Positions 16,211 to 51,070 of a DNA stretch of 64,000 nucleotides are shown piece by piece (within the stretch, counting starts at the first letter, position 1; each line of letters opens with the position of its first letter). The notes beneath the pieces are model-generated. The model searched no databases. It was not told the origin of the DNA and saw nothing but the letters and a program-made list of their open reading frames with translations. The stretch is from Gautieria morchelliformis (taxonomy: Eukaryota; Basidiomycota; Agaricomycetes; Gomphales; Gomphaceae): positions 186,001-250,000 of the forward strand of contig WHVA01000095.1 of NCBI GenBank assembly GCA_015179125.1, in the 5' to 3' direction. The position numbers and the translations under genes are program-made.

Positions 16211-17094
16211 GTCTCCTGTTGGAGGGCGGTCATTTATATAAGCGCCTTACTAATCTCACGGACTTCCGCTACGCCTATGTCAGACGATTTTTGTGGGGTA
16301 CTCTGTGGCTCGATATGTTCTTTCATCACAGTTGGATGTTTTGAAGTCTGTGCTGCTTGCGCGATAGACTTCAGTACCTACAGTGAGCGTTCTCATATCA
16401 CTCTGACCTTGTGGATACGGCGATGATTCTCATGGTTTTTCGCCCAGGACATACATGCGTGGAGAGACAAGGGAGCAGACGGCTATGGTGCTTCAGATCC
16501 AATCAAGACACAGGGGAAACAGAAACAGGGAATGCAGAGCAGCTTCCACATGAAAGGCAACCTCTTCTCAGTGATTCACAACCCAAAGCACAGCCGATGA
16601 TGGCAGCGTCATCAACAGCAGCTGTGGATTGACGAAGATACGCGGAAGGGGAAGTCATTCCTGAGTTAGTCCTATCCTCACTACTGGCTACCTCTAGGCT
16701 TGCATATTTCAATGTACCCGTTATACATGCTAGCTAACGATCACCCAGGGAATTACAACTGTTCATCCTTCACACTTATCGCTAAATACCACCTTAATCT
16801 ATTCCAAGGATAGAAACTCGGCGTGTGGCCGTCTATGGATACGCAGTATCCTTGTGTACACTGACCTCAGGAGGTGTCAGGACTGTGTAATAATGAAGGC
16901 TGCTTCCTCAGCCTTTCCCCTGCATTTATAGCAACGTTCAACGAATATGGTCAACGTCCAAGAGCCTAGTACATCTGTGTTTATAGAGGCTGGTTTACAG
17001 TCTATACTTATTTGACATGTCGCAGATTAATGACTCGGATGCAGTCATCACGTGACCAGGTCCGACTTGTCTGGTATTAATATCTCTGCTGGCC
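16211..17094. promoter_or_regulatory. divergent promoter region between SAC3 and OMA1
   Basis: 884 bp separate two genes that point away from each other, so both promoters must lie here. I found no clear TATA box at a conserved distance and no RNA gene. Short open frames on both strands look like chance. Confidence 0.5.
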
Positions 17095-18708
17095 ATGGCA
17101 TGTCACCTCTTGCGCACTCGTTTTTACTATGGTGCAAGGACGCTGCTACTCGCAAATGCAGCTATATCTAAATTTACCCCAAATGTCAGCCGATCGACCC
17201 TGAGAACAATCACGTCTAGCTCTCGAATGAGGGCTCACAACGAGCGAACCCGGTTCGACTACCAACGTGGGGATTTCCATCCCCGAGATTGGCACCCTAG
17301 AACTCAATTGGCAGCCCTCGCAGTTGCAGGCGGCACTGTCTATTATGTTTACCAGTGAGCTGACGATATATATGAATCGAAGACAGTTATGCTCACACTA
17401 TTTCAGTTTAGAAAGGGTTCCAGTCACTGGGCGTTGGCGCTTTATGGACGTCACTGCACAGGAAGAGTATAGATTTGAAATGGAAACCTACAAGGAGCTT
17501 GTTAAGCAATACCAGGGCCGTATTCTCGATCCGTCGCACCCCACCTCTGTCTCTGTGCGACAGGTAGTGAGCCGTTTGCTCGATGCGTCTGAACTTGGAC
17601 AATTGAAGGACGAGGATGATTTCGGAACGCCTGGAGATACTTGGAATGATGTCTCAACGCTTGGAGAAATGTCCAGTCAAACTAAAACACCACAGCGACT
17701 GCCACGGACATGGAAGCTGCTGGTTGTGAACGATCCGACCATCAATGCGATGGCTAGTTATGGTATGACCACTATTTCATCTGTACCGATGAAAGCTCCT
17801 AGCAATGCTCTTTCAGGCACTATTGTAGTGTTTCTAGGCATTTTACCCTTCTGCGCAAACAAAGACGGCCTTGCTGCCGTGATCGGCCATGGTGATGATC
17901 CTCTCATTCTCGATATTTCAGACATGTGTCTGAAGTTTTTACAATAGAAATCGCACACGTTGGTAAATACAGCGTTGTCCTGCTGCCCAGTTATTCCTGA
18001 TTCCTGTGCCTACATTTCACCAAGTGGCCCGACATTCCGCTGAAAGGCTGTCGTCTGTGACAGTTTTCACATCCGTCGCCTTTCTCATCGACTTCCTCCT
18101 CCAATCCACGCTCAATATTGGAGGCCTCGTTACTACACTTGCATTACAGTTCCGTCTCTAACACTCGCTCAAGCCAGTAATCTCATACATTTTTTATATG
18201 ACAGGCTTCCAAATTCGCGAAAACAAGAATTAGAAGGTTTGGCGCATGTGCAATCAGTGCACTTTTCCTGAGCTTTGACGCATCATTACAGCGGATCTGA
18301 TAGGCCTTACTTTAACTGCCAGAGCGTGTTTTGACCCCCTAGCCGCTTCCGAGTATTATCGTGTTTCTTATTCTCTATACACTTTGCATTGATTGATTAT
18401 CAGGGTGCAGAAACGCTTGGCCACGTTTCAGAAAGTCAAGACAGGTAAAAACGAGGGCGTTGGATTACTAAACACCCATCCGCTATATGGAGAACGAATA
18501 CAGGTAGGCAGAGCTGTCTTGACGACGGTTAGGACCTATGTATATGCTTACACGATCACCCGTGCAGTTTCTTGAGTCGCTTCTTCCCGATGCATATGCT
18601 ATTCGAGCAGCAAGCCCGTCATGCGCTGGGATGGAGGAAAACTTGGGCGCATTCGTAGAAATGGCAACGTCTGATGGTTCGAAGACTGAACGGAGTGCAG
18701 AGTGGTAA
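17095..18708 (+). CDS. OMA1: OMA1 mitochondrial inner-membrane metallopeptidase (M48)
   Basis: OMA1 is a stress-activated zinc protease of the inner mitochondrial membrane. The first exon encodes a presequence rich in Arg/Ser and a hydrophobic segment TQLAALAVAGGTVYYVY. After intron 1 come LERVPVTGRWRFMDV, YKELVKQYQGRILDPSHP, RTWKLLVVNDPTINAMASYG, GTIVVFLGILPFCANKDGL and AAVIGH. A 58-nt intron (17889-17946) splits the zinc motif; joined across it the site reads HEIAHV, matching HExxH. Further exons give ARHSAERLSSV, LLQSTLNIGGLV, LPNSRKQELEADLIGL (the downstream ExxxD metal-ligand region), TACFDP-like sequence, NTHPLYGERIQ and FLESLLPDAYAIRAA. The stop is TAA 18706-18708. This is the only intact copy; its 3' part is repeated downstream as pseudogenes. 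Confidence 0.92.
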
Positions 18709-18989
18709 AATATCTTATAGCCTCGATATAGGTATCTGATGTGGCACGCGTGTCTCCGTCACAGACAAGATAAAGAGTATACAGTGCAGCATATATTACA
18801 TTTAAGTACAGTAAAAATGGAAACGGGACCCAGTATGAACCCAACATGTTGGCATCTGTCTGGTCGGGAAAAATCTGCTCCTCAAAAAAAAACACTCTGC
18901 TCGCTGGTCTATGCAATGCTTTAGAAATTCAGTATGTTCACATTTTCGTTGTCTATGTAACCTGAGCCTTGAAAGTTTCCACTAGCGAG

Positions 18990-19274
18990 TGAAAACTGCC
19001 TCGGGCAGCTCAACAACGACCCAAGTATCGCCAAGCGAATGGATATCGACGAGATTGCATCCGAGTGAGTATCTCTTCTCCGATCCTCGTTAACACGATA
19101 TGCACTCAGATTCATTAAAGTCGCTAACCAGACCATGTGTCGACCTATTCGTGCTCTTACCGAGTCTCGTGGATTCGCGGCGCACGCGCTCGGGACGGAG
19201 CGCCGCGGTGGCGACGTGCACGAGGCGTTCGTCGAGGGGATGGTGTTCGCGCTCGGCCAGCGCAAGATCTTAGT
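18990..19274 (+). other. unrecognised spliced coding-like fragment, copy 1
   Basis: The plus strand reads LGQLNNDPSIAKRMDIDEIA, then an intron with GTGAGT donor and TGCACTCAG acceptor, then FIKVANQTMCRPIRALTESR and a continuation containing HEAFVEGMVFALGQRKI. Removing the intron keeps one frame, which supports a captured piece of a real gene. I do not recognise the protein and see neither a start nor an end. The same piece recurs in the next two units. Confidence 0.5.
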
Positions 19275-19427
19275 ACTTTTCCACCGTCACATAGTATTAG
19301 AATTCAGGTCACATTTTAACGGACAAACATACTAAGTAGCGACAACTAATGCGGATTTATGAAGAATTGCGTGCACCGCTAAGCCGAAGCATCCCAGCTC
19401 AATGGCGTCTCTGATGTCCACCTTGAT

Positions 19428-20028
19428 CTAGATTGACATTCCACATCCAAGGTAATCCGAAATATGCTGGCGGCGTTGAGCCACAGTCGCGTTCTGTACA
19501 AAATGAAGGCCAAGAATTCCTGCAACAGTGTTGCACTGAGCAACTAAATAGAGTTAGGTAAGAGCAAAAAAAATCAGTGTAACACACGTACTTGGAAGGT
19601 CACGCAGTGCAGCTTTGGTAGCTGGGAGAGGAGGGTCTAGAGCAATTGCAGGAGGATATCGGATGGGGCTATCAAGTGAAGCGGCCGTGTTGTATAACCG
19701 GATCGGCAGAAGGTCCTCCCTGCAAAATAGTGAGAACCTGAAGTGAAGCATGATGGAAAAGTAAAGGGGCTTACATAGTTTGCAATCGTTGGTTGATCTG
19801 AACAAGTGTTTCGTTTATTTGAGCTAGCTGTTGATTCGTTTGGGCATTTTGCTGATTCATTTGGGCATTTTGTTCATGCATTTGTGCCATGATTTGGGCA
19901 TTTTGAGCTATGATTTGGGCATTCCGTTCAAACAATTGCTGAAGATTTTCAGCAAGCTGTGGCTGATTTGCGGGTGGAAGGTTTTGAAGGAGAGCGGTCT
20001 GGCTGGTCGCAAAGTTAGGTTGAGCCAT
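19428..20028 (-). CDS. Mug135-like protein, copy A (intact)
   Basis: Three exons: 19775-20028, 19592-19719 and 19428-19543. Together they total 498 nt, or 165 residues. All introns are GT-AG. The N-terminus (MAQPNFATSQTALLQNLPPA) is followed by Gln/Asn-rich heptads of the NAQMNQQ type, which predict a coiled coil. Then come RLYNTAASLDSPIRYPPAI, LPATKAALRDLP, and a C-terminal module with CNTVAGILGLHFV and AQRRQHISDYLGC. This architecture matches my memory of basidiomycete proteins annotated with a Mug135-like C-terminal domain; that name rests on recall, not a search. No function is known. The gene is antisense to its flanking OMA1 sequences. Copies B and C are also open, while the fourth copy is scrambled. 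Confidence 0.7.
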
Positions 20029-20058
20029 GATAGTGATGACCGTTCAACTGAAAGCACG

Positions 20059-20334
20059 TCACACGTGACTTCCATTTACGTAAGCACTGCGAACATGAGC
20101 AACGAGGATGCCACTCGATCCTGAGCCTCGTTTCCCATCGCTAGTCGAATCGCCCAACTCGCCATCAACGTCATTGGGAAGCTCGTAGATACCACCTTCC
20201 GCATTGGAACTGGCGATCACCGATCGTTCGGCGTTATTGAAGGTGAACGTTCGTGGCTGAACATACTGATTGCCGAGCTTCCGCACGCTGAGTATTCCTA
20301 TGTACATCCGAGCCCGTGGTGAGATCGTATTCAC
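20059..20334 (-). pseudogene. captured fragment of coatomer alpha subunit, unit 1
   Basis: The minus strand encodes LSVRKLGNQYVQPRTFTFNN followed by AERSVIASSNAEGGIYEL, PNDVDGEL and STSDGKRGSGSS. This matches the segment after the WD40 propeller of COPI alpha subunits, where the family shows an NPAERAV-type motif, a YEL stretch and an EGKR/DGKRGSG stretch. Only about 90 residues are present, with no WD repeats or C-terminus, so this is a piece of a gene that should exist intact elsewhere. It sits directly before the next OMA1 copy. An unrelated protein with the same motifs is unlikely but not excluded. Confidence 0.65.
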
Positions 20335-20344
20335 ACTATTACAG

Positions 20345-21641
20345 TTTAGAAAAGGTTCCAGTGACTGGGCGTTGGCGCTTCATGGACGTTACTCCACAGG
20401 AAGAGTATAGATTTGAAATGGAAACCTGCAAGGAGCTGGTTAAGCAAGACGAGAGCCTGTTTCTTGATCCGTCGCACCCCGCCTCTGTTTCTGTGTGACA
20501 GGTAGTGAGCCGTTTACTCCATGCGTCTGAACTTGGACAATTGAAGGACGAGGATGATTTGGGAACGCCTGGAGATACTTGAATGATGTCTCAACGCTTG
20601 GAGAAATCTCTGGTCAAACTACTACACCACAGCGACTGCCACGGACATGGAAGCTGCTGGTTGTGAACGATCCCACCATCAATGCGATGGCTAGTTATGG
20701 TATGACCACTATTTCATCTATACTGATAAAATCTCCTAGCAATGCGCTTGCAGGCACTATTGTACTGTTTCTAGGCATTTTACCCTTCTCTGCGCAGACA
20801 AAGACCGTCTTGCTGCCGTGATCGGCCATGCCATGGTGATGGCCCTCTCATTCTCGATATTTAAGGGACGTGTCTGAAGTTTTTACAATAGAAATCGCAC
20901 ACGTTGGTAAATACAGCGTTGTCCTACTGCCCAGTTATTCCTGATTCCTGTGCCTATATTTCATGAACTGGCCCGACATTCCGCTGAAAGGCTGTCGTCT
21001 GTGACCGTGTTCACATCCGTCGCCTTTCTCATCGACTTCCTCCTCCAATCCACGCTCAATATTGGAGGCCGCGTTACTAGACTTGAATTACAGTTCCGTC
21101 TCTAACACTCGCAGTAATCTCATACATTTTTTATATGACGGGCTTCCAAATTCGCGAAAACAAGAATTAGAAGGTTTGGCGCATGTGCAATCAGTGCACT
21201 TTTCCTGAGCTTTGACGCATCATTACAGCGGACCTGATAGGCCTTACTTTAACTGCCAGAGCGTGTTTTGAACCCCTAGCCGCTTCCGAGTATTCTCGTG
21301 TTTCTTATTCTCTATACGCTTTGCATTGATTGATTATCAGGGTGCAGAAAGGCTTGGCCACGTTTCAGAAACTCCAGACAGGTAAAACCGAGGGCGTTGG
21401 ATTACTAAACACCCATCCGCCCTATCAAGAACGAATACAGGTAGGCAGAGCTGTCTTGACGACAGTTAGGACCTATATGCTTACACGATAACCCGCGCAG
21501 TTTATTGAGTCGCTTCTTCCCGATGCATATGCTATTCGAGCAGCAAGCCCGTCGTGCGCCGGGATGGAGGAAAACTTGGGCGCATTTGTAGAAACGGCAA
21601 CGTCTGATGGTTCGAAGACTGAACGGAGTGCAGAGTGGTAA
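20345..21641 (+). pseudogene. OMA1 pseudogene, copy B
   Basis: This begins exactly at OMA1 exon 2 (LEKVPVTGRWRFMDV); exon 1, the presequence and the membrane segment are absent. Lesions include CGA to TGA after the SHPASVSV stretch, a one-base loss that destroys TWNDVS (ACTTGAATG), and a small insertion at the donor just before the HExxH exon (GGCCATGCCATGG). The downstream exons and the terminal TAA are still recognisable. It cannot make a working protease. Confidence 0.9.
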
Positions 21642-21902
21642 AATATCTTATAGCCTCGATATAGGAATCTGATGTGGCACGCGTGTCTCCGTCACAGACA
21701 AGATAAAGAGTATACAGTGCAGCATATATTACATTTAAGTACAGTAAAAATGGAAACGGGACCCAGTATGAACCCAACATGTTGGCATCTGTCTGGTCGG
21801 GAAAAATCTGCTCCTCCATAAAAAAAACACTCTGCTCGCTGGTCTATGCAATGCTTTAGAAATTCAGTATGTTCACATTTTCGTTGTCTCTGAGCCTTGA
21901 AA

Positions 21903-22172
21903 GTTTCCACTAGCGAGTGAAAACCGCCTCGGGCAGCTCAACAACGACCCAGGTATCGCCAAGCGAACGAGATTGCATCCGGGTGAGTATCATGTCTCTT
22001 CTCCGATCCTCGTTAACACGTCAGATTCATTAAAGTCGCTAACCAGACCATGGACCTATTCGTGCTCTTACCGAGTCTCGTGGATTCGCGGCGCACGCGC
22101 TCGAGACGGAGCACCGCGACGGCGGCGTGCAGGAGGCGTTCGTCGACGGGATTCGCGCTCAGCCAGCGCAAG
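21903..22172 (+). other. unrecognised spliced coding-like fragment, copy 2
   Basis: This is a diverged copy of the fragment at 18990-19274. It has lost bases around IAKRMDIDEIA and around the CRPIRALTESR segment, so it is no longer open across the join. Confidence 0.45.
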
Positions 22173-22331
22173 ATCTCAGTACTTTGCCATCGTCACATAG
22201 TATTAGAATTCAATGGACAAGCATACCAAGTAGCGACAACTAATGCGGATTTATGAAGAATTGCGTGCACCGCTACACCAAAAATATGTTCTGGATCCCA
22301 GCTCAATGGCGTCGCCGATGTCCACCTTGAT

Positions 22332-22980
22332 CTAGATTGCCATTCCACATCCGAGGTAGTCTGATATATGCTGGCGGCGTTGACGTGCAGTCGCGTTATG
22401 TACAAAATGAAGGCCAAGAATTCCTGCAGTAGTGTCGCACCGAGCAACTGAATAGAGTTAGGTAGGAGCAGAAAAAATCAGTGTAGCACACGTACTTGTA
22501 AGCTCACGCAGCATAGCTTTGGTAGCTGGGAGAGCAGGGTCTGGAGGAATTGCTGGCGGATATCGGATTGGACTGTCTAACGATGCAGAGGTGTTGTACA
22601 AGCGTATCGGGAGGAGCTCCTCCCTGCAAAATCGAGAGATCCTGAAGTGAATCATGACCGAAGATTAAACGGACTTACATGGTTCGCAGTCGTTGGTCGA
22701 TCCGAGCAAGTGTTTCGTTCATCTGTGCCAGCTGTTGATTCATTTGCTGATTCTGCTGGTTCATTTGCTGATTCTGCTGGTTCATTTGCTGATTCTGCTG
22801 ATTCATTTGCGCCGTGTTTTGAGCAATTTGAGCAAGAATTTGGGCATTCTGGTTAAACAATTGCTGAACGTTGTCGGCAAGCTGCTGCTGGTTGGCGGCC
22901 GGTATGTTTGGCAGGAGAGCGGTCTCGTTGGTCAACCCAACGAGACACTGATGCATGGTCGCAAAGTTGGGTTGAGCCAT
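22332..22980 (-). CDS. Mug135-like protein, copy B (intact, expanded coiled coil)
   Basis: It has the same three-exon layout as copy A and ends in YLGCGMAI. The N-terminus differs (MAQPNFATMHQCLVGLTNE). The heptad region is expanded to three direct copies of NQQMNQQ, making the product about 181 residues. The C-terminal module reads CDTTAGILGLHFV and RQRRQHISDYLGC. Several substitutions from copies A and C, with no stop or frameshift, suggest the gene was kept under some constraint or diverged recently. Function is unknown. Confidence 0.68.
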
Positions 22981-23179
22981 GATAGTGATGACCGTTCAAC
23001 TGAAAGCACGTCACACGTGACTTCCATTTACATAAGCACTACAAACCGATTGTGAGCAACGAAGGATGACACTCGATCCGGAGCCTCGTTTCCCATCGCT
23101 AGTGTCGCGCGCAGGACTGAGTTGGAAGGGAAAATTTATTAGATTACTATCTACTCGGTGAGTACCTAGCACTACGCAC

Positions 23180-23223
23180 CTGAGTTCGAAGGGAAAATTG
23201 ATAGGGTTTCCCTTCGAACTCAG
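23180..23223. repeat. perfect 17-bp inverted repeat (hairpin)
   Basis: The arm CTGAGTTCGAAGGGAAA at 23180-23196 is repeated as its exact reverse complement at 23207-23223, with a 10-base loop. It lies in about 180 bp (23103-23280) that is present only between units 2 and 3. Just upstream a similar half-arm occurs (ACTGAGTTGGAAGGGAAAAT at 23115-23134). Confidence 0.95.
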
Positions 23224-23280
23224 ACTACTATATTGGGCGACTGCGTCACGTGATCTCGCACGAGCAACAGCTAGTCACAG

Positions 23281-23420
23281 GGCGACAAGCTCGTAGATAC
23301 CACCTTCCGCATTGGAACTGGCGACCACCGATCGTTCGGCGTTATTGAATGTGAGCGTTCGTGGCTCAACATACTGATTGCCAAGCTTCCTTACGCTGAG
23401 TACTTCTACATCCGAGCCCG
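23281..23420 (-). pseudogene. captured fragment of coatomer alpha subunit, unit 2
   Basis: A shorter, diverged copy. The minus strand reads EVLSVRKLGNQYVEPRTLTF and then NNAERSVVASSNAEGGIYEL, after which homology stops at the hairpin-bearing insertion. Some residues differ from copies 1 and 3 and look closer to the expected coatomer sequence (RTLTF rather than RTFTF). Confidence 0.6.
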
Positions 23421-23448
23421 TGTTATGATCATACTTACACTATTACAG

Positions 23449-24732
23449 TTTAGAAAAAGTTCCAATAGCTTAGCGATGGCGCTTCATGGTCGTCAGTCCA
23501 CAGGAAGAGTATAGATTTGAAACGGAAACCTGCAAGGAATGGTTAAGCAATACGAGAGCCGTATTCTTGTTCCGTTGCACCCCGCCTCTGTCTATGTGTG
23601 ACAGGTAGTGAGCCGTTTACTCGATGCATCTGAACTTGGACAATTGAGGGACGAGGATGATTTGGGAACGCCTGGAAATACTTGAAATGATGTCTCGACG
23701 GTGGGAGAAATGTCTAGTCAAACTACTACACCCCAGCGACTGCCACGGACATGGAAGCTGCTGGTTGTGAACGATCCGACCATCAATGCGATGGCTAGTT
23801 ATGGTATGACCACTATTTCATCTATACTAGCAATGCGCTTGCAGGCACTATTGTACTGTTTCTAGTCATTTTACCCTTCTCTGCGCAGACAAAGACGGCC
23901 TTGCTGCCGTGATCGGCCATGGTGATGATCCTCTCATTCTCGATATTTAAGGCACGTGTCTGAAGTTTTTACAATAGAAATCGCACACGTTGGTAAATAC
24001 AGCGTTGTCCTGCTGCCCAGTTATTCCTGATTCCTGTGCCTACATTTCACCAAGTGGCCCGACATTCCGCTGAAAGGCTGTCGTCCGTGACAGTGTTCAC
24101 ATCCGTCGCCTTTCTCATCGACTTCCTCCTCCAATCCACGCTCAATATTGGAGGCCTCGTTACTACACTTGCATAACAGTTCCGTCTCTAACACTCGCTC
24201 AAGCCAGTAATCTCATACATTTGTTATATGACAGGCTTCCAAATTCGCGAAAACAAGAATTAGAAGGTTTGGCGCATGTGCAATCAGTGCACTTTTCCTG
24301 AACTTTGACGCATCATTACAGCGGACCTGATAGGCCTTACTTTAACTGCCAGAGCGTGTTTTGACCCCCTAGCCGCTTCCGAGTATTATCGTGTTTCTTA
24401 TTCTCTATACGCTTTGCATTGATTGATTATCAGGGTGCAGAAAGGCGGCCACGTTTCAGAAACTCCAGACAGGTAAAAACGAGGGCGTTGGATTACTAAA
24501 CACCCATCCGCTATATGGAGAACGAATACAGGTAGGCAGAGCTGTCTTGACGACAGTTAGGACCTATATGCTTACACGATAACCCGCGCAGTTTATTGAG
24601 TCGCTTCTTCCCGATGCATATGCTATTCGAGCAGCAAGCCCGTCGTGCGCCGGGATGGAGGAAAACTTGGGCGCATTTGTAGAAACGGCAACGTCTGATG
24701 GTTCGAAGACTGAACGGAGTGCAGAGTGGTAA
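23449..24732 (+). pseudogene. OMA1 pseudogene, copy C
   Basis: Like copy B it starts at exon 2. It shares the CGA to TGA stop. It also has lost bases in the KELVKQ segment, has TGG to TGA at the TWND tryptophan (ACTTGAAATG), and lacks about 15 bases around SIxxKSPSNAL. The HExxH exon (AAATCGCACACGTTG) survives but cannot be reached in frame. Confidence 0.9.
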
Positions 24733-25028
24733 AATATCTTATAGCCTCGATATAGGAATCTGATGTGGCACGCGTGTCTCCGTCACAGACAAGATAAACT
24801 GAGTATACAGTGCAGCATATATTACATTTAAGTACAGTAAAAATCGAAACGGGACCCAGTACGTATGAACCCAACATGTTGGCATCTGTCTGGTCGGGAA
24901 AAATCTGCTCCTCCAAAAAAAAAAACACTCTGCTCGCTGGTCTATGCAATGCTTTAGAAATTCAGTATGTTCACATTTTCGTTGTCTATGTAATCTGAGC
25001 CTTGAAAGTTTCCACTAGTGAATGAAAA

Positions 25029-25307
25029 CTGCCTCGGGCAGCTCAACAACGACCCAAGTATCGCCAAGCGAATAGATATCGACGAGATTGCATCCGAGTG
25101 AGTATCTCTTCTCCGATCCTCGTTAACACGATATGCACTCAGATTCATTAAAGTCGCTAACCAGACCATGTGTCGACCTATTCGTGCTCTTACCGAGTCT
25201 CGTGGATTTGCGGCGCACGCGCTCGAGACGGAGCGCCGCGGTGGCGGCGTGCACGAGGCGTTCGTCGAGGGGATGGTGTTCGCGCTCGGCCAGCGCAAGA
25301 TCTTAGT
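25029..25307 (+). other. unrecognised spliced coding-like fragment, copy 3
   Basis: It is nearly identical to copy 1 (18990-19274), with a few substitutions (for example RIDIDEIA at the splice side and ALETERRGGGVHEAF downstream). It still reads through after intron removal. The protein is not recognised. Confidence 0.5.
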
Positions 25308-25460
25308 ACTTTTCCACCGTCACATAGTATTAGAATTCAGGTCACATTTTAACGGACAAACATACTAAGTAGCGACAACTAATGCGGATTTATGAAGAAT
25401 TGCGTGCACCGCTAAGCCGAAGCATCCCAGCTCAATGGCGTCTCTGATGTCCACCTTGAT

Positions 25461-26061
25461 CTAGATTGACATTCCACATCCAAGGTAATCCGAAATATGC
25501 TGGCGGCGTTGAGCCACAGTCGCGTTCTGTACAAAATGAAGGCCAAGAATTCCTGCAACAGTGTTGCACTGAGCAACTAAATAGAGTTAGGTAAGAGCAA
25601 AAAAAATCAGTGTAACACACGTACTTGGAAGGTCACGCAGCGCAGCTTTGGTAGCTGGGAGAGGAGGATCCAGAGGAATTGCAGGAGGATACCGGATGGG
25701 GCTATCAAGTGAAGCGGCCGTGTTGTATAACCGGATCGGCAGAAGGTCCTCCCTGCAAAATAGTGAGAACCTGAAGTGAATCATGATGGAAAAGTAAAGG
25801 GGCTTACATAGTTTGCAATCGTTGGTTGATCTGAACAAGTGTTTCGTTTATTTGAGCTAGCTGTTGATTCGTTTGGGCATTTTGCTGATTCATTTGGGCA
25901 TTTTGTTCATGCATTTGTGCCATGATTTGGGCATTTTGAGCTATGATTTGGGCATTCCGTTCAAACAATTGCTGAAGATTTTCAGCAAGCTGTGGCTGAT
26001 TTGCGGGTGGAAGGTTTTGAAGGAGAGCGGTCTGGCTGGTCGCAAAGTTAGGTTGAGCCAT
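25461..26061 (-). CDS. Mug135-like protein, copy C (intact, near-identical to copy A)
   Basis: It has the same exon structure and length as copy A (165 residues). The N-terminal exon is identical in translation, and exon 2 differs by single residues (PAIPLDPPLP against PAIALDPPLP). It lies at a fixed 6,033-bp offset from copy A, inside the recently duplicated two-unit block. The C-terminal AQRRQHISDYLGCGMSI is intact. Function is unknown. Confidence 0.7.
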
Positions 26062-26091
26062 GATAGTGATGACCGTTCAACTGAAAGCACG

Positions 26092-26367
26092 TCACACGTG
26101 ACTTCCATTTACGTAAGCACTGCGAACATGAGCAACGAGGATGCCACTCGATCCTGAGCCTCGTTTCCCATCGCTAGTCGAATCGCCCAACTCGCCATCA
26201 ACGTCATTGGGAAGCTCGTAGATACCACCTTCCGCATTGGAACTGGCGATCACCGATCGTTCGGCGTTATTGAAGGTGAACGTTCGTGGCTGAACATACT
26301 GATTGCCGAGCTTCCGCACGCTGAGTATTCCTATGTACATCCGAGCCCGTGGTGAGATCGTATTCAC
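26092..26367 (-). pseudogene. captured fragment of coatomer alpha subunit, unit 3
   Basis: Its translation is identical to the fragment at 20059-20334, as expected from the recent block duplication. It again ends directly against the next OMA1 copy. Confidence 0.65.
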
Positions 26368-26377
26368 ACTATTACAG

Positions 26378-27677
26378 TTTAGAAAAGGTTCCAGTGACTG
26401 GGCGTTGGCGCTTCATGGACGTTACTCCACAGGAAGAGTATAGATTTGAAATGGAAACCTGCAAGGAGCTGGTTAAGCAAGACGAGAGCCTGTTTCTTGA
26501 TCCGTCGCACCCCGCCTCTGTTTCTGTGTGACAGGTAGTGAGCCGTTTACTCCATGCGTCTGAACTTGGACAATTGAAGGACGAGGATGATTTGGGAACG
26601 CCTGGAGATACTTGAATGATGTCTCAACGCTTGGAGAAATCTCTGGTCAAACTACTACACCACAGCGACTGCCACGGACATGGAAGCTGCTGGTTGTGAA
26701 CGATCCCACCATCAATGCGATGGCTAGTTATGGTATGACCACTATTTCATCTATACTGATAAAATCTCCTAGCAATGCGCTTGCAGGCACTATTGTACTG
26801 TTTCTAGGCATTTTACCCTTCTCTGCGCAGACAAAGACCGTCTTGCTGCCGTGATCGGCCATGCCATGGTGATGGCCCTCTCATTCTCGATATTTAAGGC
26901 ACGTGTCTGAAGTTTTTACAATAGAAATCGCACACGTTGGTAAATACAGCGTTGTCCTACTGCCCAGTTATTCCTGATTCCTGTGCCTATATTTCATGAA
27001 CTGGCCCGACATTCCGCTGAAAGGCTGTCGTCTGTGACCGTGTTCACATCCGTCGCCTTTCTCATCGACTTCCTCCTCCAATCCACGCTCAATATTGGAG
27101 GCCGCGTTACTACACTTGAATTACAGTTCCGTCTCTAACACTCGCAGTAATCTCATACATTTTTTATATGACGGGCTTCCAAATTCGCGAAAACAAGAAT
27201 TAGAAGGTTTGGCGCATGTGCAATCAGTGCACTTTTCCTGAGCTTTGACGCATCATTACAGCGGACCTGATAGGCCTTACTTTAACTGCCAGAGCGTGTT
27301 TTGAACCCCTAGCCGCTTCCGAGTATTCTCGTGTTTCTTATTCTCTATACGCTTTGCATTGATTGATTATCAGGGTGCAGAAAGGCTTGGCCACGTTTCA
27401 GAACTCCAGACAGGTAAAACCGAGGGCGTTGGATTACTAAACACCCATCCGCTATATCAAGAACGAATACAGGTAGACAGAGCTGTCTTGACGACAGTTA
27501 GGACCTATGTATATGCTTACACGATCACCCGCGCGGTTTCTTGAGCCACTTCTTCCCGATGCATATGCTATTCGAGCAGCAAGCCCATCGTGCGCTGGGA
27601 TGGAGGAAAACTTGGGCGCGTTTGTAGAAATGGCAACGTCTGATGGTTCGAAGACTGAACGGAGTGCAGAGTGGTAA
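26378..27677 (+). pseudogene. OMA1 pseudogene, copy D
   Basis: Over exons 2-5 it is close to copy B and carries the same TGA, the same ACTTGAATG deletion and the same GGCCATGCCATGG insertion. From about 27400 onward it differs more (for example a lost base in FQKLQTG and a damaged acceptor CGCGCGGTTTC). Shared lesions show that B and D descend from one already broken copy. Confidence 0.9.
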
Positions 27678-27884
27678 AATATCTTATAGCCTCGATATAG
27701 GAATCTGATGTGGCACACGTGTCTCCGTCACAGACAAGATAAACTGAGTATACAGTGCAGCATATATTACATTTAAGTACAGGAAACATGGAAACCTCTT
27801 CGGAAATTTGAGTACTGGGTGGGTGGTGCGACCCAGTCAGAACCTACTATGCTGGCATCTGTTGGGAAAATCTACTTCCTCAGG

Positions 27885-29450
27885 GACTGCAGTTATAGGG
27901 GTTCGGTCTTGAATTGGAATGGTCCAGCGTGTTGGTTTGGTCATGTCGAGTGGTTTTTTTGATAATCCCTAACATATGCTCGCTTTTGATGCACTAATGT
28001 ATGACGCATGTGACCTACTTATGCGCTATGTAAGTCGCTTGAAACCCCACGCGCGCGCAAATGAGAATTTTTCAGCACCGCGCGAAGTGTAAAATACCTC
28101 GAATGGGGCGCGCATGGGATAATTTTTGTGCATCTCGACCGCCATACGAGTCGTCCTTGTCCACGCGCTGCGCAAGAGTTGCAGGAATGGAGACGCACAT
28201 AATAGGAGGCGGAGTGTGTGCCATGACGAGCACCCTCGAACGGCGGCCTTTCCATGCCAGCCGTCATCTTGAACCCGAGCCCAACCTGATGGATAATACT
28301 TCATCTAGCAGGTCGGTCATGACACCTCGCCCAACATGGTCTATATCTGTGTTCAGCCTCCCGCATGCAAAGGCAGCGACCGGGTCTGGCGTGACTTGGG
28401 TCTTCTGCAGTCCTGTTCAACTGGCGTCGTTACAATAAAATAATAATAATCTGCGTTTGCTTCTTGATGTGCACGTCCAGCCTAATAAGTCTCAGACAAA
28501 ATCGCGCTACATCAATCCGGGTCGTAGTACATAAACAAGTACACTGACCCGTCTTCTTCACTGTGTTTCGACTCGCAGCAGCCTCCTCAAGTGTACTACT
28601 ATCACTCGTCGTCACGCCTCGATTTGGGAAGTCGAGCAGGGCGACGTCACCAGCGAAAACAAATCTCGGAGGCGCCAAGGCACACCTAGGAACAAAAAGG
28701 CTCCCTGGGTGTCGAACGCGGGCATCCATGTCCACTTTCTTGAGTTCGATCCTGCCCAGACAATGGATTACCACTGATCTAGCAGGGAAGCGATAACATA
28801 ACATCCAACGTACTCTGTATATGTGTTCAGCCTCCCGCATGCAAAGGCAGCGACCTCTCCAGCGTCACTAGCGGCGCCTTCCGCAGTCCTGTCCAAGGCT
28901 GCTGTCAGCCACGGCGTTGTTACAGTAATTTGTAAAAATATATATATAATTTGCGTCTGCTTCTTGGCATGCCTACTAATTAGATACAGACGCGTTCTCG
29001 TCGTGTCACGCTCAGGCTACTTACTAGTGATTGGTGCTACATAAACAACTGCCACAACCGACCCCAATGCACTGGTGCAACCTACAGTCCTAGCTTCTTC
29101 TTCACTCTGTTTCGACGACTCGCACTAGCTTGCTCAAGTGTGCTATGTACTAGATCGACAGTGCGTGTTTTCTTACTTCACTGCTGCACTGCAGAGATGC
29201 GATGACGTTGATGCCCCGCTTCGGTTGATGATTCTGGTTCGAGCTTTGGGCACAGCATTCCAATGGTGTGAGGCCTGAGGCCTGAGGGTTAGTCGGCATT
29301 CCTGGAGTCAGGCCTTGTGTTCATTCCTCCGTTTTCAGCGTTTCCTTTTGGTTTCTTTCGACTGCGATCTTTTCTTGACATATCCCGTCTTCACTCATAT
29401 TACAAAATTGTCCGACATACCTCACAGTGTATAGCATCCCCATCTCAGTT
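27885..29450. other. 1.5-kb insertion in unit 4 with an internal direct repeat
   Basis: Array sequence stops near 27880 and resumes near 29455, so this stretch interrupts unit 4. It contains a diverged direct repeat: TGTTCAGCCTCCCGCATGCA occurs at about 28350 and again at about 28822. Each copy is followed by a similar cytosine-rich block and a TTTGCGT(T/C)TGCTTCTTG stretch, giving a period of about 470 bp. No recognisable protein is encoded. It may be a remnant of a mobile element or a captured segment. Confidence 0.5.
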
Positions 29451-29599
29451 CCCAGTAGTTTTCCATCGTCACAGCATTACAATTCATGCACCTTTTAACG
29501 GACAAACATACTAAGTAGCGACAACTGACGTGGATTTATGAAGAATTGCGTGCGCTGCTACCTTGAAAATTATGTTCTGCATCCAGCTCAATGGTGTCA

Positions 29600-30245
29600 C
29601 CGATGTCCACCTCGTTCTAGAGGGACATTCCACATTCAAGGTAATCAGAAATCCATCAGCAAATTTCAGATTACCTTGGATGTGGAATGTCACTCTAGAC
29701 ACACACCTGTAAGGCCATGCAGTACAGCTTTGGTGGTTGGGAGAGGTGGATTTATAGCAATTGCAGGAGGATATCGGATAGGGCTATCAAGAGAAGCTGA
29801 GGTGTTGTATAACCGGAACGGCAGGAGGTCCTTCCAAAATGTGAGAACCCGATGTGAATCATGACCGAAAATTGAATGGGCTTACATGGTTTGCAATCGT
29901 TGATTGATCCGATCAACCAACGATTGCAAACCATGTAAGCCGAACAAGCGTTTTGTTTATCTGACCGAGCGTTTCGTTCATCTGAGCGACTCAGGCGTTT
30001 TGCTGATTCATCTGAGCCATGATTTGGGCGTTCTCGCCCAAATAATGGCTCAAATGAATCATCAAAGTGCGCAGAAACAATTGCTGAACATTTTCAGCAA
30101 GCTGTTCTTGATTCACGGCTGGAAGGTTCGGGACTCGAAGCGCGGTCTTGTTGGATTGACCAATGAGACCGCGCTTCTCCAAAACATCCCAGCAGCGAAT
30201 CACCAACAGCTTGCTGAAAATATTCAGCAATCATCACTATCATGG
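29600..30245 (-). pseudogene. Mug135-like pseudogene, copy D (broken by fold-backs)
   Basis: Pieces of all three exons are present in the expected minus-strand order: the 3' exon with its YLGC end near 29612-29700, exon 2 (LYNTSASLDSPIRYPPAI) near 29750-29830, and the N-terminal exon from 29880. Each piece is interrupted by a short inverted copy of itself, so no continuous frame remains. Confidence 0.8.
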
Positions 30246-30285
30246 CTCAACAGTGATGCCCGTTCAACTGAAAGCACGTCCGACT

Positions 30286-30460
30286 TCACCGGGCGTGGGA
30301 ACTTGCGTACGATTAGTAATCAGTACCGATCAAACTGTACTTAGCCCTGCAGATTACACCATTCGAAGCTGTCAACAACTTTGCTCACCCTCCCACAACT
30401 GGTACGCTCTTTTATTTGTTCAGTCACCAGGTTTGGATGAAATTTATATCAGGACACTGA
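30286..30460 (+). repeat. direct repeat with 31970-32140
   Basis: The stretch beginning TTCACCGGGCGTGGGAACTT and including CAACAACTTTGCTCACCCTC and GTCACCAGGTTTGGATGAAA recurs at about 31970-32140 with small indels. The two copies bracket the distal part of the array (coatomer fragment, second palindrome group and the fifth OMA1 remnant). Confidence 0.8.
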
Positions 30461-30463
30461 ATT

Positions 30464-30665
30464 GCGGCCCTCGACGAAGAGATCTACATGGAGCAGGCCG
30501 AAGGCAGCATCATTAAGGGAATGGAAAATCATGTCTGCCGGCTACGGAAGGGACTATACGGACTGAAACAATCAGGCCGTCAGTGAAATAAGACGCTGGA
30601 CAAGGCCATGGTCTCGCAAGGATTCACTCGCAACCCAGTTGACCACTGCGTATACAGCCGTTCCA
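30464..30665 (+). pseudogene. Ty1/copia reverse-transcriptase fragment
   Basis: The plus strand reads AALDEEIYMEQAEG, CRLRKGLYGLKQSGRQ, a TGA where a Trp is expected, then NKTLDKAM, GFTRN and VDHCVYSR. This is the copia RT segment between the first catalytic region and the YxDD region. It is a short dead piece and joins directly to an inverted coatomer fragment. Confidence 0.85.
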
Positions 30666-30668
30666 GTG

Positions 30669-30842
30669 ATCAGCCACGAACGCTCACTTTCAATAACGCC
30701 GAACAATCGGTGATTGCCAGTTCCAATGCGGAGGGTGGTATCTACGAGCTTGCCCTTCCCAATGATGTTGATGGCAAGTTGCGCGATTCGACTAGGGACG
30801 GGAAACGAGGTTCAGGATCGAGTGTCATCCTGCTCACAATCG
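30669..30842 (+). pseudogene. inverted coatomer alpha fragment
   Basis: It is the same segment as at 20059-20334 but on the opposite strand: QPRTLTFNNAEQSVIASSNA, then EGGIYELALPNDVDGKL and DSTRDGKRGSGSS. The inversion relative to the three other copies fits the inverted character of this part of the array. Confidence 0.65.
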
Positions 30843-31376
30843 TATGTAAATGGAAGCCAGGTGTGACATGCTTACTGTTGAACCGTCATCTACTACGGCT
30901 CCACCCAATTTTGCTACCATGCACCAGTGTCTACTAGACACTGGTGCAGTGCTTAGGTAAATGGAAGTCAGGTGTGACGTGCTTTCATTCTGTTGATTCA
31001 TCTGTGTTATGATCTGCGCATTTTGGAGGTTTATTTGTGTGGTGATGTGGGCGTTTTGTTGAAACAATTGTTCAACAAACTGTTGGTTATTCGCCGCCGG
31101 GATGTTTGGGAGACGCGCGGCCTCATTTGCCAACCCAAGTAGACACTAACAAAACGCCCACATCATGACTCAAATGAACCTCCAAAACATGCAGATCATA
31201 TCACAGATGAATCAACAGAATGCCCAAGCCAATCACCATGTCGCTAAGATGAACGAGACCCTCACCCACATAAACGAAACACTTAATCAGGTCAATGAAA
31301 CACATTCATGGACCTGAATAAGCGTTTGATTCATACGGGTCAGGGTCTCGTTTATCTTAGCGACATGGTGATCGGT

Positions 31377-31619
31377 CACTAAACACCCATCCGCTATATC
31401 GAGAACAAATACAGGTATGCAGAGCTGTCTGGACGACGGTTAGGATCTATGTATATGGTTACACGATCACCCGTGCAGTTTCTTGAGTCGCTTCTTCCCG
31501 ATGCATATGCTATTCGAGCAGCAAGCCCGTCGTGCGCTGGGATGGAGGAAAACTGGGGCACATTTATTGAAATGGCAACGTCTGATGGTTTGGAAACTGC
31601 TCTGAGTGCAGAGTGGTAA
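31377..31619 (+). pseudogene. OMA1 pseudogene, fragment E (last exons only)
   Basis: This encodes the NTHPLY-related end of the penultimate exon and the last exon (FLESLLPDAYAIRAASPSC, then a diverged tail and TAA). It follows directly after the last fold-back. The 3' flank to about 31790 is also shared with the other units. Confidence 0.85.
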
Positions 31620-32390
31620 AATAACCTATAGCCTCGATATAGGAATCTGATGTGGCACACGTGCCTCCGTCACAGACAAGATAAACTGAGTATACAGTGC
31701 AGCATATATTACAGTAAGTACAGTAAAAATGGAAATGGGACCCAGTAAGAACCCAACATGTTGGCATCTGTCGGGACGGGAAAACTCTGGCTAGACCAGA
31801 TAAGTGAGACAATAGCAGCTGAGCGCAGAATGCGAGTGCGAGCAATATAGTACGTCGTGTAGCTGTAGTATGCTTAAGACCAAAGCAGACCAGCCCAGAT
31901 TTAGCTAGAAGTCTTCTGAAAGCAGATCAGAACAGGTTAAAACATGCATACTATACACTTTTCGGTAGTTCACCGGGCGTGGGAACTTCGTACGATTAGT
32001 AATCAGTACCGATCAAGCTGCAGCCCTGCAGATTATTTACACCGTTCGAAGCTGTCAACAACTTTGCTCACCCTCCGAACTCCCACAACTGGTACGCTCT
32101 TGTTCGGTCACCAGGTTTGGATGAAATTTCACACCAGGACACTTGACAAAGTAGAGGCCGCCACCAGCTATTGTAACCGTATCATTTCCGACTCGTGCTT
32201 GTAATCCTACGACGTCTCTCTCTTGTATCTTATGGCTGGAATGTGAGTTGTTGTTTTCATATGGTGATGTTTTTAGTGCTGAATGGCCCTTGTGGTTCGC
32301 ACTGACTGCAGCGTCGACATCATCTACCTGACGGCGGTACGTGGCTCCTGCTGACTCTGTCCCAGCCTCAGTCGCTCACCAGTCACCTCG

Positions 32391-32711
32391 ATGGCCATGC
32401 ATACTCGGACAGACGCTTCTCATTCTTGGAGGTGCCGTCGGTGCGTATATGACTGTTCGTGCTTAGTGAAAGTGCGACAGCTGACAGATCTTGGTACGGT
32501 GCGGTCAGCTGCAATACTCTTCGTCGTAAACTCAATTTCCGCGTTCACCTCGACGACAAAGGAGAAGCTTAAATCGAAGGGATATGACGTGTCTCGCAAG
32601 GGTGTTGCGGTGCAGACGCAGAAGCGGTTTAATCGGGAAGATTATGTGGATGCGACGCAGAGGTGGGCTCTCGTGTCTGGACCGGTGTTTGAGCTTTCAT
32701 TTGACAATTAA
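32391..32711 (+). CDS. small hypothetical protein or gene fragment
   Basis: The 106-codon frame has protein-like composition in its second half (VRSAAILFVVNSISAFTSTT, KEKLKSKGYDVSRKGVAVQT, QKRFNREDYVDATQR). Just before, another frame reads TLLILGGAVGAYMTVRA, a possible membrane segment that an intron could join to it. I do not recognise the family. It may be the C-terminal part of a small membrane protein or a decayed remnant, since it sits next to the rearranged array. Confidence 0.35.
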   Translation: MAMHTRTDASHSWRCRRCVYDCSCLVKVRQLTDLGTVRSAAILFVVNSISAFTSTTKEKLKSKGYDVSRKGVAVQTQKRFNREDYVDATQRWALVSGPVFELSFDN

Positions 32712-35700
32712 TTGCGCTGCGCTCTCTTGCACGGTGGTGACATTTGAACAACAGAGGGCTCGTCAAGGCGTTTGGTGCGTCATCGTATGGCAAAGCAAGC
32801 AGCGATGGTTCGGGCCCCTCGTCAGACAAATTACAAGTGAGCTGCATTATCCACGATCCCCGTTGCAGGAACCTTGTCCTCAGCTTTTTGTAGACCCCCG
32901 AGTCCGATCAGACACTCAAAAAAACTCGTAGCGGACTACTTCGTCGGAAAGATAACAAGTCAAGCTGACTTTTATCGTCCGGCGCAAAACACGACGCATT
33001 TCCGGCTGCGTCATGTCCTGTGCCTGATCGATGCACGATTATTGTCGTATGTATTGGATGTACGTTGCTTCTCTTCTAACAAGCTTGCTGGTTTGGTAGG
33101 TCTCACTTTCGACTTGGCGAAAATACAGCTTGTTGTCTGCGCTGAAATTATTCTTGAACATACATACACTGTCCGTACTGTGACAGTACTAGTACTCACC
33201 ATGCATGCCATGGATATATGTATTTGCACCTGAACTTCAAACTGTTATTATCTGTAATAACTTCAGAATTGCTTTGTGCGACCTTCGCCCTGCTTACTAT
33301 TCGCTGTGATAATGCTGAAGGTCGTGGTCAAACCAGTAAGTTTGGTACGGCCATTTCCACAAGTTTCGCTCCGATCGTATGTAGCCAATTTGTAGCCAGC
33401 GCAGCGCCCAGGACCCTGCCTCCTTCTGTTTTTTCTTCTTTATGCAATATGACCGCCATAGGCAGGCATAAGTCGACGAATGCACATACGCCGGAAGTGC
33501 CGTCCCTAGCTCTTCTGGCAAGGTCTGAGCTGCATTTGACAAGGAACATGGCTGATAGGTTTCCAACCTTGCGCTATGACGGCCATCTTCGGGGGGAGCA
33601 TGGATCAATGAACAGCTTGTTGTAGATGCTAGGAGCGGATCGGTTCCTCGAAACGTCGCTTGTAGTACACGAGCGGCATAGATGTCGACAAGAATTTCCC
33701 GCAACTGAGCTTCTGGTTTCTATCGTCCCTTGCCTCTCTTGAGTATGGTCCCCTTCATGTAAGTTTGCGTAGACAAAATCTAGAGTGTGCAACTCATCGC
33801 TAAGTCCCAGTGGGGAATCGATGATGCTGATGAGGGTAGTCGTAGACCGATGTGCCACACACAGCCGGCTGGCGATGGACAAGGCTTGGCTGGTACGCAA
33901 CGAATGGTGAACTAGTCACGGTATGAGGCAATACGAGCAACAGACAACACCTGCGTCGTACGTCTCGTTGGGAGTGTTCGCCGTGGAGATGATATATTAC
34001 CCCGGAGCCCCATCGAGCGGGGGCGGTATTGAAAGATGCGTGCTCTTGCGCGATTCCGGGATCAGCGCTGTGCCCAACAACGAGATGTGCACCCAGCATC
34101 AAAAACGCCTGTACTTCCGAATCCGGTACCCCTATTCAAGGCGCTAGCATTGCCGAGGACCGGTTTGAGTGCATCACTCGTCATCAGCCACGCCTGCGGC
34201 GAGGCTTTCGGACGACTCGGACAAGGCACCATCGAACTCCCGATTCCCCGCTGAGACAGAGCATCATGCAACCAGGCCAGAGGCTGTGGGTAATGCGGCA
34301 CAATTGACCATCGCTCAAGCATGGATGGACAACTTTGCAGTAGCATTAGGATGTATATAAGCTCACGATGCAGGTCGCTAAGATAATGGTGTCACGGAAA
34401 TCCGAGCTGGGTGGAAATTGAATATAATCTCATATTCTTCATGTATCTGCTATACACAGCACGGATGGCGATCCATATGGCATGCTGAACACCCGGAATG
34501 GACTGCAACCAGAGTCTGGGAACTCATGTTGTCATGGTAGAAATGTGCCTGTTTTGGCAGTTCAGATCACACCAAGGCGGGATCCCCTTACAGTAATTTT
34601 CTGGGTTCACCTTCGTGTAATTGTTTTGTAAGTTGACGTGGGATAATGTAAGAGTGATAACGTGTACGATGCGTAAAATGGCAAGGAATATTAGTATGCA
34701 CGCCAGGACTAGTAAGTTAGTAGCTCGAATACTCACAGAGACGGGCGTTGTCGCTGACAGTTGCCACCCGCTCCACACTGCAGCTCAGAATGTTCCTTGC
34801 CGGACAGACCTGGGCGGAAAGTATGTAAAGTTATGTAAGTACTTGATGTTGTGAGTGCCAGGTACTGACCTGGCATGCTGTACCGAGGCAAATTAGGGTT
34901 CAAATTTCCAAACGTTCATGTACTTCGCAAGGACCAAGCCAGAAAAGCTCCGGTGGCGTGAGCCCTGTCGCTTGCACAGAATACCTTTTGGATCGCTGTC
35001 TCTCTCACCTGCACCTGTACCGCAAGGCACACCGTGACGCGTGACATACTTGACTTGGCGATCGTCGGTTAGTTATACTTATATGGTTAGTCACGGACGG
35101 ACGTAAGACGGCACATCTGTGTGGTTCCACAGTCTAATCATGGGTCACAGGTGCGTATGATCCAGTGGTGTTTCCATTTTAGTTAATTATAATTCGGAGC
35201 CGCTACAAGTTGTGTTGCTTGCTAAGTCTTCATGCACGGGTTTAGCTGAATAGCATTCGGATAATGGTCTAGCCTGGCAGGTAGAATTAGTCACTATCAC
35301 GGCAGACTATCATGGTGGCAGTCGTTCGGGATTAGATACTTGAGTTACTAGTCTAGACGGTGTCTGAGGCCAGCCGCCAGTGCCACTGGCAGGGTTCGGT
35401 GGAAAGCTCAATGTGCCTCCCGACGAACCCGCCGCCCCATTAATGGTCTCGGAGCCTGGAGGTTCCAAATCCCACATAAGTATGTGTGAGCTCGTCATTC
35501 GCTGGCGATTGGGCGGGTTCCTGACGAGCGTACCGCCACCGGATCTCAGTTTCCAACGGTTCTTTGGCCTGTTCGGGCCCCCAGGCGACCCGGCTGAGCA
35601 ACCACATCAAAAACCAAACTTGGACACTCACTGCCATAGCCGTTACACCCGACTACTTACCATTAACAGCTACAATAGCAGTTCAATGAATTTGGTTACC

Positions 35701-43750: not shown

Positions 43751-43769
43751 GCTGTTCAACCAGCCCTAG

Positions 43770-44449
43770 TGTTACGACCGTTCATTTCCGACTTCCGACC
43801 CTCAGTTCCGCCACTCCTTCCGCCCCTCCGATAGTTCCGTCACACGTTCCGCCCCTCCGACATTTCCGACATTCCGCCCCTTGTACATTTCCCTTGTTCT
43901 TTCGACTCTATTACTCGGACCCACCGGACCCACCTCGCCATCCATCAAAACCATATATCCGGTCACCCTTGTAGTTCGTTGTCAGATATCTTTTCCCGAC
44001 CCCTTGTTCTTTGCCATTGTTCTACCTTACCCTGAACCCCCCTTGTAGTCCCATTGTTCCCAATTAGTTAGTTCCCACACATTGTACTCGACTTCCGCTT
44101 CCTCCGGAATTTGTTTAGTACAACACCATTACTTGTTGCTCTGCGCTTTGTATAAAACCCCCTCATGTATGTCTGTTATTCTGCAATCAGATAATCACCT
44201 TCGATACTTGATTTCCTTCGCTCCATCTCCTGTTCTTAGCACAGCGAGTCTAGCAAGATCTCAGTCCTTCCGTCTTCCGCCTTCCGCCTCAGTTCCGACT
44301 CAAGTTCCGACCAACCTCTAGTTCAGTACTTTCCGACTTCCGACTCAGTTCCGAAATACTTAGGACGATAGTTCATCGGGGGCGCAACCTATAAGTTGAA
44401 GCCGCCGTCCTTTCTAGTTCCGACTTAGTGGAAATCTCGATACGTAACA
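43770..44449 (+). repeat. 5' LTR of the chromovirus
   Basis: 680 bp from TGTTACGACC to TACGTAACA. It contains TATAAAA at about 44151 (CTTTGTATAAAACCCCC). It is very similar to the 3' LTR, differing by a handful of substitutions and a 12-14 bp insertion. Confidence 0.93.
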
Positions 44450-44482
44450 GTATTATCTGATTCCCACCCGATAACTATCACC

Positions 44483-50948: not shown

Positions 50949-51070
50949 GATGGAATAGAGAGAAAACGCGTTTGTCCTTCAGCCCATATTTCAAACTCCG
51001 ACGCGTTTGTTCACAGGTCACGTGATTCCGACTTGTGGTCTCGCAGGGCTCGACCTTAGAAGGGAGATAC

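Follow-up and report, generated by a model that had tools for sequence, protein, structure and literature searches.

Positions 29447-31377 of a 64,000-nucleotide stretch of the Gautieria morchelliformis genome (contig WHVA01000095.1, positions 186,001 to 250,000; hereafter the window) carry a degenerate version of a gene block that is repeated in tandem. It includes seven fold-backs, in each of which a piece of the gene is followed by its own reverse complement (7/7). This array is probably the relic of a complex copying accident, completed mostly in one episode, in a degenerate member of the tandem gene family. The evidence comes from the order of the pieces, inversion-free relatives nearby, the density of fold-backs relative to control DNA, and the equal divergence of the copied pieces.

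Fold-backs of the array and their full-length relatives

An inverted-repeat search confirmed the seven successive inverted repeats with arms of 14-75 nt that had been reported in a preliminary description, and gave arm identities of 83-100 % (Table 1). Loops had been described as mostly 1-10 bases long, which is true for six of the seven, the exception being P7. The two listed pairs of P4 belong to a single fold-back interrupted by an indel of net 3 nt, and the label P5 denotes the inner pair of P4, not a separate fold-back.

A tandem repeat of a ~3-kb unit spans 17.4-27.8 kb of the window (in a 276-kb contig of a 122-Mb genome), and a full-length gene block is present in each of three units (c1, c2 and c3). 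Full-length copies without the array's fold-backs sit 3-10 kb from the array. Neither c1 nor the copy on contig C704 contains any inverted pair of at least 14 nt, both being paralogues and not the true ancestor. Three inverted pairs were found in c2, two of them in its upstream insertion and the third a weak 17-nt pair (82 %) near the position of the P4 turn.

Anatomy of the array

The anatomy was derived from a template-switch alignment to c1 with strict jump costs; cheaper jumps splintered the alignment. Piece borders are uncertain by several bases, and by more within the 21-bp repeats inside the gene and in half B, where identities are mostly 71-78 %. In this alignment the array consists of two gene copies lying head to head (half A and half B), both interrupted by local inversions; between them are a 174-bp duplicate of a segment further downstream and a 197-bp fragment of a copia reverse transcriptase gene. 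It had been proposed that the pieces keep the order of the gene within each cluster. The first cluster (29447-30284) runs through the gene in one direction and the second (30667-31377) in the opposite one, and two foreign pieces lie between them.

Within half A, the forward path resumes after each reversal at or past the furthest point reached, to within ~1 base. Its piece 4 runs forward from c1 19931 to ~20003 (partly via c2) and then back to 19935. The presumed intron near 29830-29886 is retained in the array, which indicates that the template was DNA rather than a spliced message. No third copy of the 174-bp piece was among the matches listed in genome searches.

Table 1. Fold-backs, templated pieces and full-length gene copies, in window coordinates
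Feature	Position	Strand	Details
P1	29616-29652/29663-29699		arms 37 nt, 92 %; loop 10
P2	29879-29909/29911-29941		arms 31 nt, 97 %; loop 1
P3	29999-30030/30035-30066		arms 32 nt, 91 %; loop 4
P4	30080-30154/30160-30231		two listed pairs, 54 nt 83 % and 18 nt 89 %; loop 5
P6	30920-30933/30935-30948		arms 14 nt, 100 %; loop 1
P7	30986-31060/31148-31222		arms 75 nt, 89 %; loop 87
P8	31229-31299/31305-31375		arms 71 nt, 85 %; loop 5
Half A piece 1, c1 19265-19463 forward	29447-29652	+	alignment 83-88 %
P1 inverted copy of c1 19473-19427	29653-29699	-	19464-19473 missing from forward piece
Half A piece 2, c1 19585-19801 forward	29700-29912	+	~111 bases skipped; presumed intron kept
P2 inverted copy of c1 19796-19768	29913-29941	-	
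Half A piece 3, c1 19800-19905 forward	29942-30035	+	76-80 %; alignment blurred by 21-bp repeats
P3 inverted copy of c1 19899-19860	30036-30075	-	
Half A piece 4, c1 19931-19983 and matching c2 stretch, forward	30076-30154	+	
P4 inverted copy of piece 4	30155-30231	-	turn at short c2 palindrome 22922-22931/22937-22946
Short inverted piece, c1 20038-20019, start codon region	30232-30251	-	
Half A last piece, c1 20032-20064 forward	30252-30284	+	
174-bp piece	30285-30458	+	same orientation at 31969-32143; 19 mismatches in 167 aligned sites
Partner of 174-bp piece	31969-32143	+	
Copia-type reverse transcriptase gene, internal fragment, 197 bp	30469-30665	+	PF07727, E = 1.3e-8, 38 aa
Half B piece 1, c1 20263 to ~20003 reversed (upstream region, gene start)	30667-30932	-	
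P6 fold-back, 14-nt arm	30933-30948	+	
Half B repeated reverse piece, c1 20087-20047	30949-30989	-	
P7 first arm and 87-nt loop, ~c1 19828-20003 forward	30990-31149	+	pieces 74-100 %; order partly uncertain
P7 second arm and P8 first arm, c1 19926-19789 reverse	31150-31299	-	77-78 %
P8 second arm, c1 19784-19861	31300-31377	+	71 % to template, 85 % to partner arm
Tandem-unit block, right border of array	31378-31789	+	18467-18877 in first unit; 90-92 % to four unit copies
c1, full-length gene copy and upstream region	19265-20263	-	no internal fold-back
c2, full-length gene copy, upstream region and insertion	22171-23440	-	gene without comparable fold-back
c3, full-length gene copy, 99 % identical to c1	25305-26296	-	no fold-back in window scan

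Density relative to chance and control DNA

Under a strict rule (ungapped arms of at least 20 nt, loop of at most 12, identity of at least 80 %), the array contained four fold-backs (P1, P2, P3 and P8), compared with none in 100 dinucleotide shuffles and nine in 239,308 bp of control DNA (conditional binomial p = 2.8e-6). Set against 0.073 expected, the four correspond to about 55 times the control rate. When arms of at least 14 nt and an identity of at least 85 % were required, the array contained five, the shuffles 1 in 100 and the control 11.

The control was non-random and comprised the remainder of the window, the two flanks of the contig, the DNA around related, PF08593 and copia loci, and six other stretches (57,229 bp) chosen regardless of content, which contributed two of the nine control fold-backs, both with 20-nt arms. 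It kept c1-c3 within the window and left out the window-overlapping stretches L001, L003, L004 and L007, stretches L029-L040, and the family stretches of L009, L010, L019 and L020; L009:851-968 would add one strict-rule fold-back. Long fold-backs were also observed in other genomic DNA, at L014:6451-6525 and L022:9643-9745 (arms 37 and 49 nt, loops 1 and 5, respectively).

Divergence of the copied pieces

The pooled fold-back arms differed at 37 of 332 sites (11.1 %), while halves A and B differed at 38 of 184 (~21 %) over four matched stretches (Fisher p = 0.004). As the arms are more alike than the two halves, the fold-backs are taken to be local self-copies younger than the split between A and B. 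The divergence of the 174-bp pair (19/167, 11.4 %) was indistinguishable from that of the arms (Fisher p = 1.0), and the copia piece differed at 21 of 197 sites (10.7 %) from its best genomic hit among the matches listed. Across all nine pieces (the seven fold-backs plus the two captured pieces), divergence was homogeneous (p = 0.55). One age was preferred over independent ages drawn uniformly between 0 and twice the mean (ln Bayes factor 4.3), and 0.84 % of independent-age simulations were equally homogeneous. The equal divergence of the arms, the 174-bp copy and the copia piece therefore favours one burst of serial template switching. Separately, transition-only decay of the arms, of the kind left by repeat-induced point mutation, was not seen, with transitions making up 21 of the 37 changes.

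Fold-backs in other family copies

No other copy of the array's structure was among the matches listed for the genome, but other fold-backs were found in other family copies. At C133:169.4-170.0k there is one inverted piece (~c1 19942-19860), whose distal part, 19903-19942, has no forward counterpart there. Copies at about C133:165.7k, C204:438.1k and C394:87.0k have one fold-back in common, at 19652-19709 and within a longer dispersed repeat, most simply read as one event that was copied later. The gene fragment carrying it (L009:851-968, L019:4993-5110 and L020:4912-5029) is part of this dispersed repeat, which is a few kb long and occurs at three places. The same repeat on C133 also contains, away from the gene family, a 25-nt fold-back at L009:1854-1915 (C133:166853-166914), where the paralogous repeat on C394 reads straight through. 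This would most simply be a gain by template switching, the direction being judged from two sequences.

Serial template switching as the proposed mechanism

Serial template switching is well supported as the putative origin of the array. The preliminary description had specified serial intrastrand template switching. The serial part agrees with the mirrored neighbouring pieces, the inversion-free relatives and the resumption of the forward path in half A, but 'intrastrand' is too narrow to cover P1 and C133:169.7k, in which the inverted piece starts past the last forward base by ~10 and ~40 bases, respectively. According to the four-point rule, an inverted piece starting beyond the break-off point cannot come from the nascent strand (PMC7954356). 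P1 and C133:169.7k would therefore need a switch to the other strand, in addition to snap-back or in its place, if no bases have since been lost. In half A, C133:169.7k and C394, copying is seen to go back to the original strand close to the switch. At the position of the P4 turn, c2 contains a 10-nt palindrome with a 5-nt loop, and formation of P4 by snap-back at a c2-like palindrome would suit this arrangement.

In the proposed sequence of events, the head-to-head gene pair A/B would have been pre-existing or brought together first. A polymerase would then have switched repeatedly, copying some tens to ~200 bases forward, next 14 to ~160 bases in reverse from the complementary strand or its own product, and then returning to the forward path. 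During the same episode, 174 bases would have been copied from ~1.5 kb downstream and, probably, ~200 bases from a dispersed copia element. Since then, the array seems to have been drifting as non-coding DNA. We infer that a single episode accounts for most of this and that the agent was either replication or break repair.

Several points weigh against this account. Half B requires backward jumps. Junction microhomology, judged by eye, amounts to ~3 bases at the 174-bp border and is little at most others, and as it is slight and partly erased by old substitutions, microhomology-mediated break-induced replication (MMBIR) as such is at most a candidate. The case for a single age from the seven fold-backs alone is weak (ln Bayes factor 1.7; 7.9 % of independent-age simulations equally homogeneous), and with the 174-bp piece added the values are 3.0 and 2.8 %. 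The mean in the one-age test was fitted to the same data, and the arms were detected by similarity, so that old arms would have been trimmed. The innermost 10 nt of P4 were probably paired before the event, 8 bases are common to two of the four A-B stretches, and the copia distance refers to the best of the matches listed, which may not be the actual source. The flanking block of the tandem unit is 8-10 % diverged from its relatives, similar to the arms, which makes the clock a coarse one. The family fold-backs elsewhere also fit a lasting hot spot.

Alternative explanations

The array could instead have accumulated gradually through independent template-switch mutations, in a hot spot or in DNA free of constraint, with no single episode. 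This is possible but doubtful. It would accommodate the two other fold-backs in separate family copies (that at C133:169.7k and the one common to C133, C204 and C394) and the single fold-backs outside the family (nine in 239 kb, one of them missing from a paralogue), and the 21-bp repeats of the gene and the short c2 palindrome at the P4 turn also speak for it. Independent ages are also not clearly rejected by the fold-backs alone. Against it stand the equal divergence of all nine templated pieces and the array density of about 55 times the control rate. An artefact of assembly or amplification, through hairpin reads or chimeric fold-backs, is very unlikely. Chimeric inversions are a familiar artefact of whole-genome amplification, but such an artefact should yield near-identical arms, whereas the arms here differ by 11 % in substitutions (37 in 332 sites); moreover, one family fold-back is common to three separate loci, with arm identities of 78-87 %. 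A row of inserted fold-back transposons or miniature inverted-repeat transposable elements (MITEs) is hardly credible. In its favour, the stems are short with small loops, but they differ from one another, are pieces of one gene and lie mostly in gene order. A genome search with the array gave no sign of the stems as a dispersed family or of dispersed copies of one terminal inverted repeat among the matches listed, and on all these grounds the candidate was rejected.

The array may also be read as a hairpin locus, in which a transcript of the chain of stems would feed small RNAs silencing the full-length paralogues, as in the plant microRNA inverted-duplication model. This role is improbable. 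Single hairpins fold more strongly than shuffled sequences (z -6 to -18 in nine folds of six stretches, covering P1, P2, P3, inner P4, P6 and P8), but strong folding is expected of any fold-back. In two arms, stretches of 24 and 21 nt still match c1 and c3 exactly, while 12 of the 14 arms lack a 21-nt exact match to c1, c2, c3 or C704. The arms have diverged as fast as the non-hairpin 174-bp duplicate of apparently equal age (the Fisher comparison given above), a strand preference for wobble pairs was not significant (7 vs 14, p = 0.19; small numbers), and positions 17000-33000 gave no Rfam match at the gathering threshold. There is a similarly slim chance that a standing template-switch hot spot in the family turns spare copies into hairpin-bearing pseudogenes, of which the array would be the richest, with small RNAs from the transcribed array damping the tandem copies.

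Identity of the tandem gene and other features of the window

On the minus strand, the gene block reads MAQPNFAT... and has a Gln/Asn-rich stretch and presumed small introns. The gene had been named Mug135-like, which was not borne out by Pfam. The C-terminal exons of c1 and c2, joined by eye at splice-like sites, matched no Pfam family, although the HMMER filters drop most weak matches. Gene pieces gave only below-cut-off Pfam matches, and PF08593 (Mug135_C) was absent among the best 25 of 29 and of 51 (one joined exon, frame doubtful). The genome contains four PF08593 matches at E <= 0.1, on contigs C47 and C926, and a tblastn search of these four loci with the c1 and c2 proteins gave no hits at E <= 10. 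Compared by eye, the true PF08593 loci show a vague likeness only (GL...RRQ.IS...GC). As the PF08593 matches sit on other contigs, the name reflects a distant likeness at best.

Within the tandem repeat, the c2 unit includes a stretch without match in c1 or c3 (23103-23286), with a perfect 17-nt palindrome at 23180-23223. A 200-aa reading frame of the tandem unit (17345-17947) has a sub-threshold match to an M48 peptidase (14.9 against a Pfam cut-off of 20.3 bits), and the matches listed in a DNA search with 17389-18900 were all on the same contig. Elsewhere in the window, a short repeat at 31781-31864 occurs in at least 35 other places in the genome, and a 147-bp unit at 4019-4310 is present in two tandem copies, 92 % alike. 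A direct 0.7-kb duplication (43767-44450 and 51068-51764, 95 % identical) lies around a region of ~45-51 kb with strong negative GC skew.

Comparison with known systems and significance

The array resembles the four-point template-switch model, with forward copying, a nearby reverse-complement piece and a return to the original strand (PMC7954356). In the cited parts of that paper, such switches are intra- or inter-strand and commonly produce a single inverted repeat, and those in apes, described singly, have inverted pieces with a median of 12 and a maximum of 128 bases. The array is unlike these in its pieces of 14 to ~160 bases, seven in succession within 1.9 kb. Template switching that creates RNA hairpins likewise yields a complete stem-loop from one mutation; the cited text concerns RNA genes, where structure-breaking changes rarely fix (PMC8794818), whereas no sign of selection on pairing is apparent in the array. 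Yeast double-strand breaks give fold-back inverted duplications together with pieces from distant loci, and template switching has been proposed to explain them. As far as the cited portion goes, those duplications are mostly ~5-34 bp and complex insertions commonly comprise two pieces (PMC11724301), while the array is longer and no break is seen with it. Chromoanasynthesis by microhomology-mediated break-induced replication (there MM-BIR) also involves much template switching in a single event (PMC13065848, in the part cited); set beside it, the array is a scar of kilobase size, preserved in a genome assembly. The inverted-duplication model of microRNA origin similarly has inverted pseudogene duplications as raw material for hairpins (PMC3237417, in the cited section), and fungal hairpin RNAs are a subject of PMC9757828. 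Among the matches listed from the open literature on template switching, inverted duplication and templated insertions, there was no array of this kind in a fungus.

The array is real, and as the scar of a known mutation process it is exceptionally dense. Whereas the cited parts of the model papers treat template-switch mutations individually, this compact scar, with seven inversions and two captured pieces of about equal divergence and with inversion-free relatives beside it, makes the order and geometry of the switches readable, and provides a natural case of a small-scale complex rearrangement retained in a genome. It also cautions that mutation alone can give rise to strong predicted hairpins that match a gene family. 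As fold-backs are present in other copies of the family and, in one case, outside it, template switching looks like a general mutation process in the genome of G. morchelliformis, with the array its densest case among those examined.
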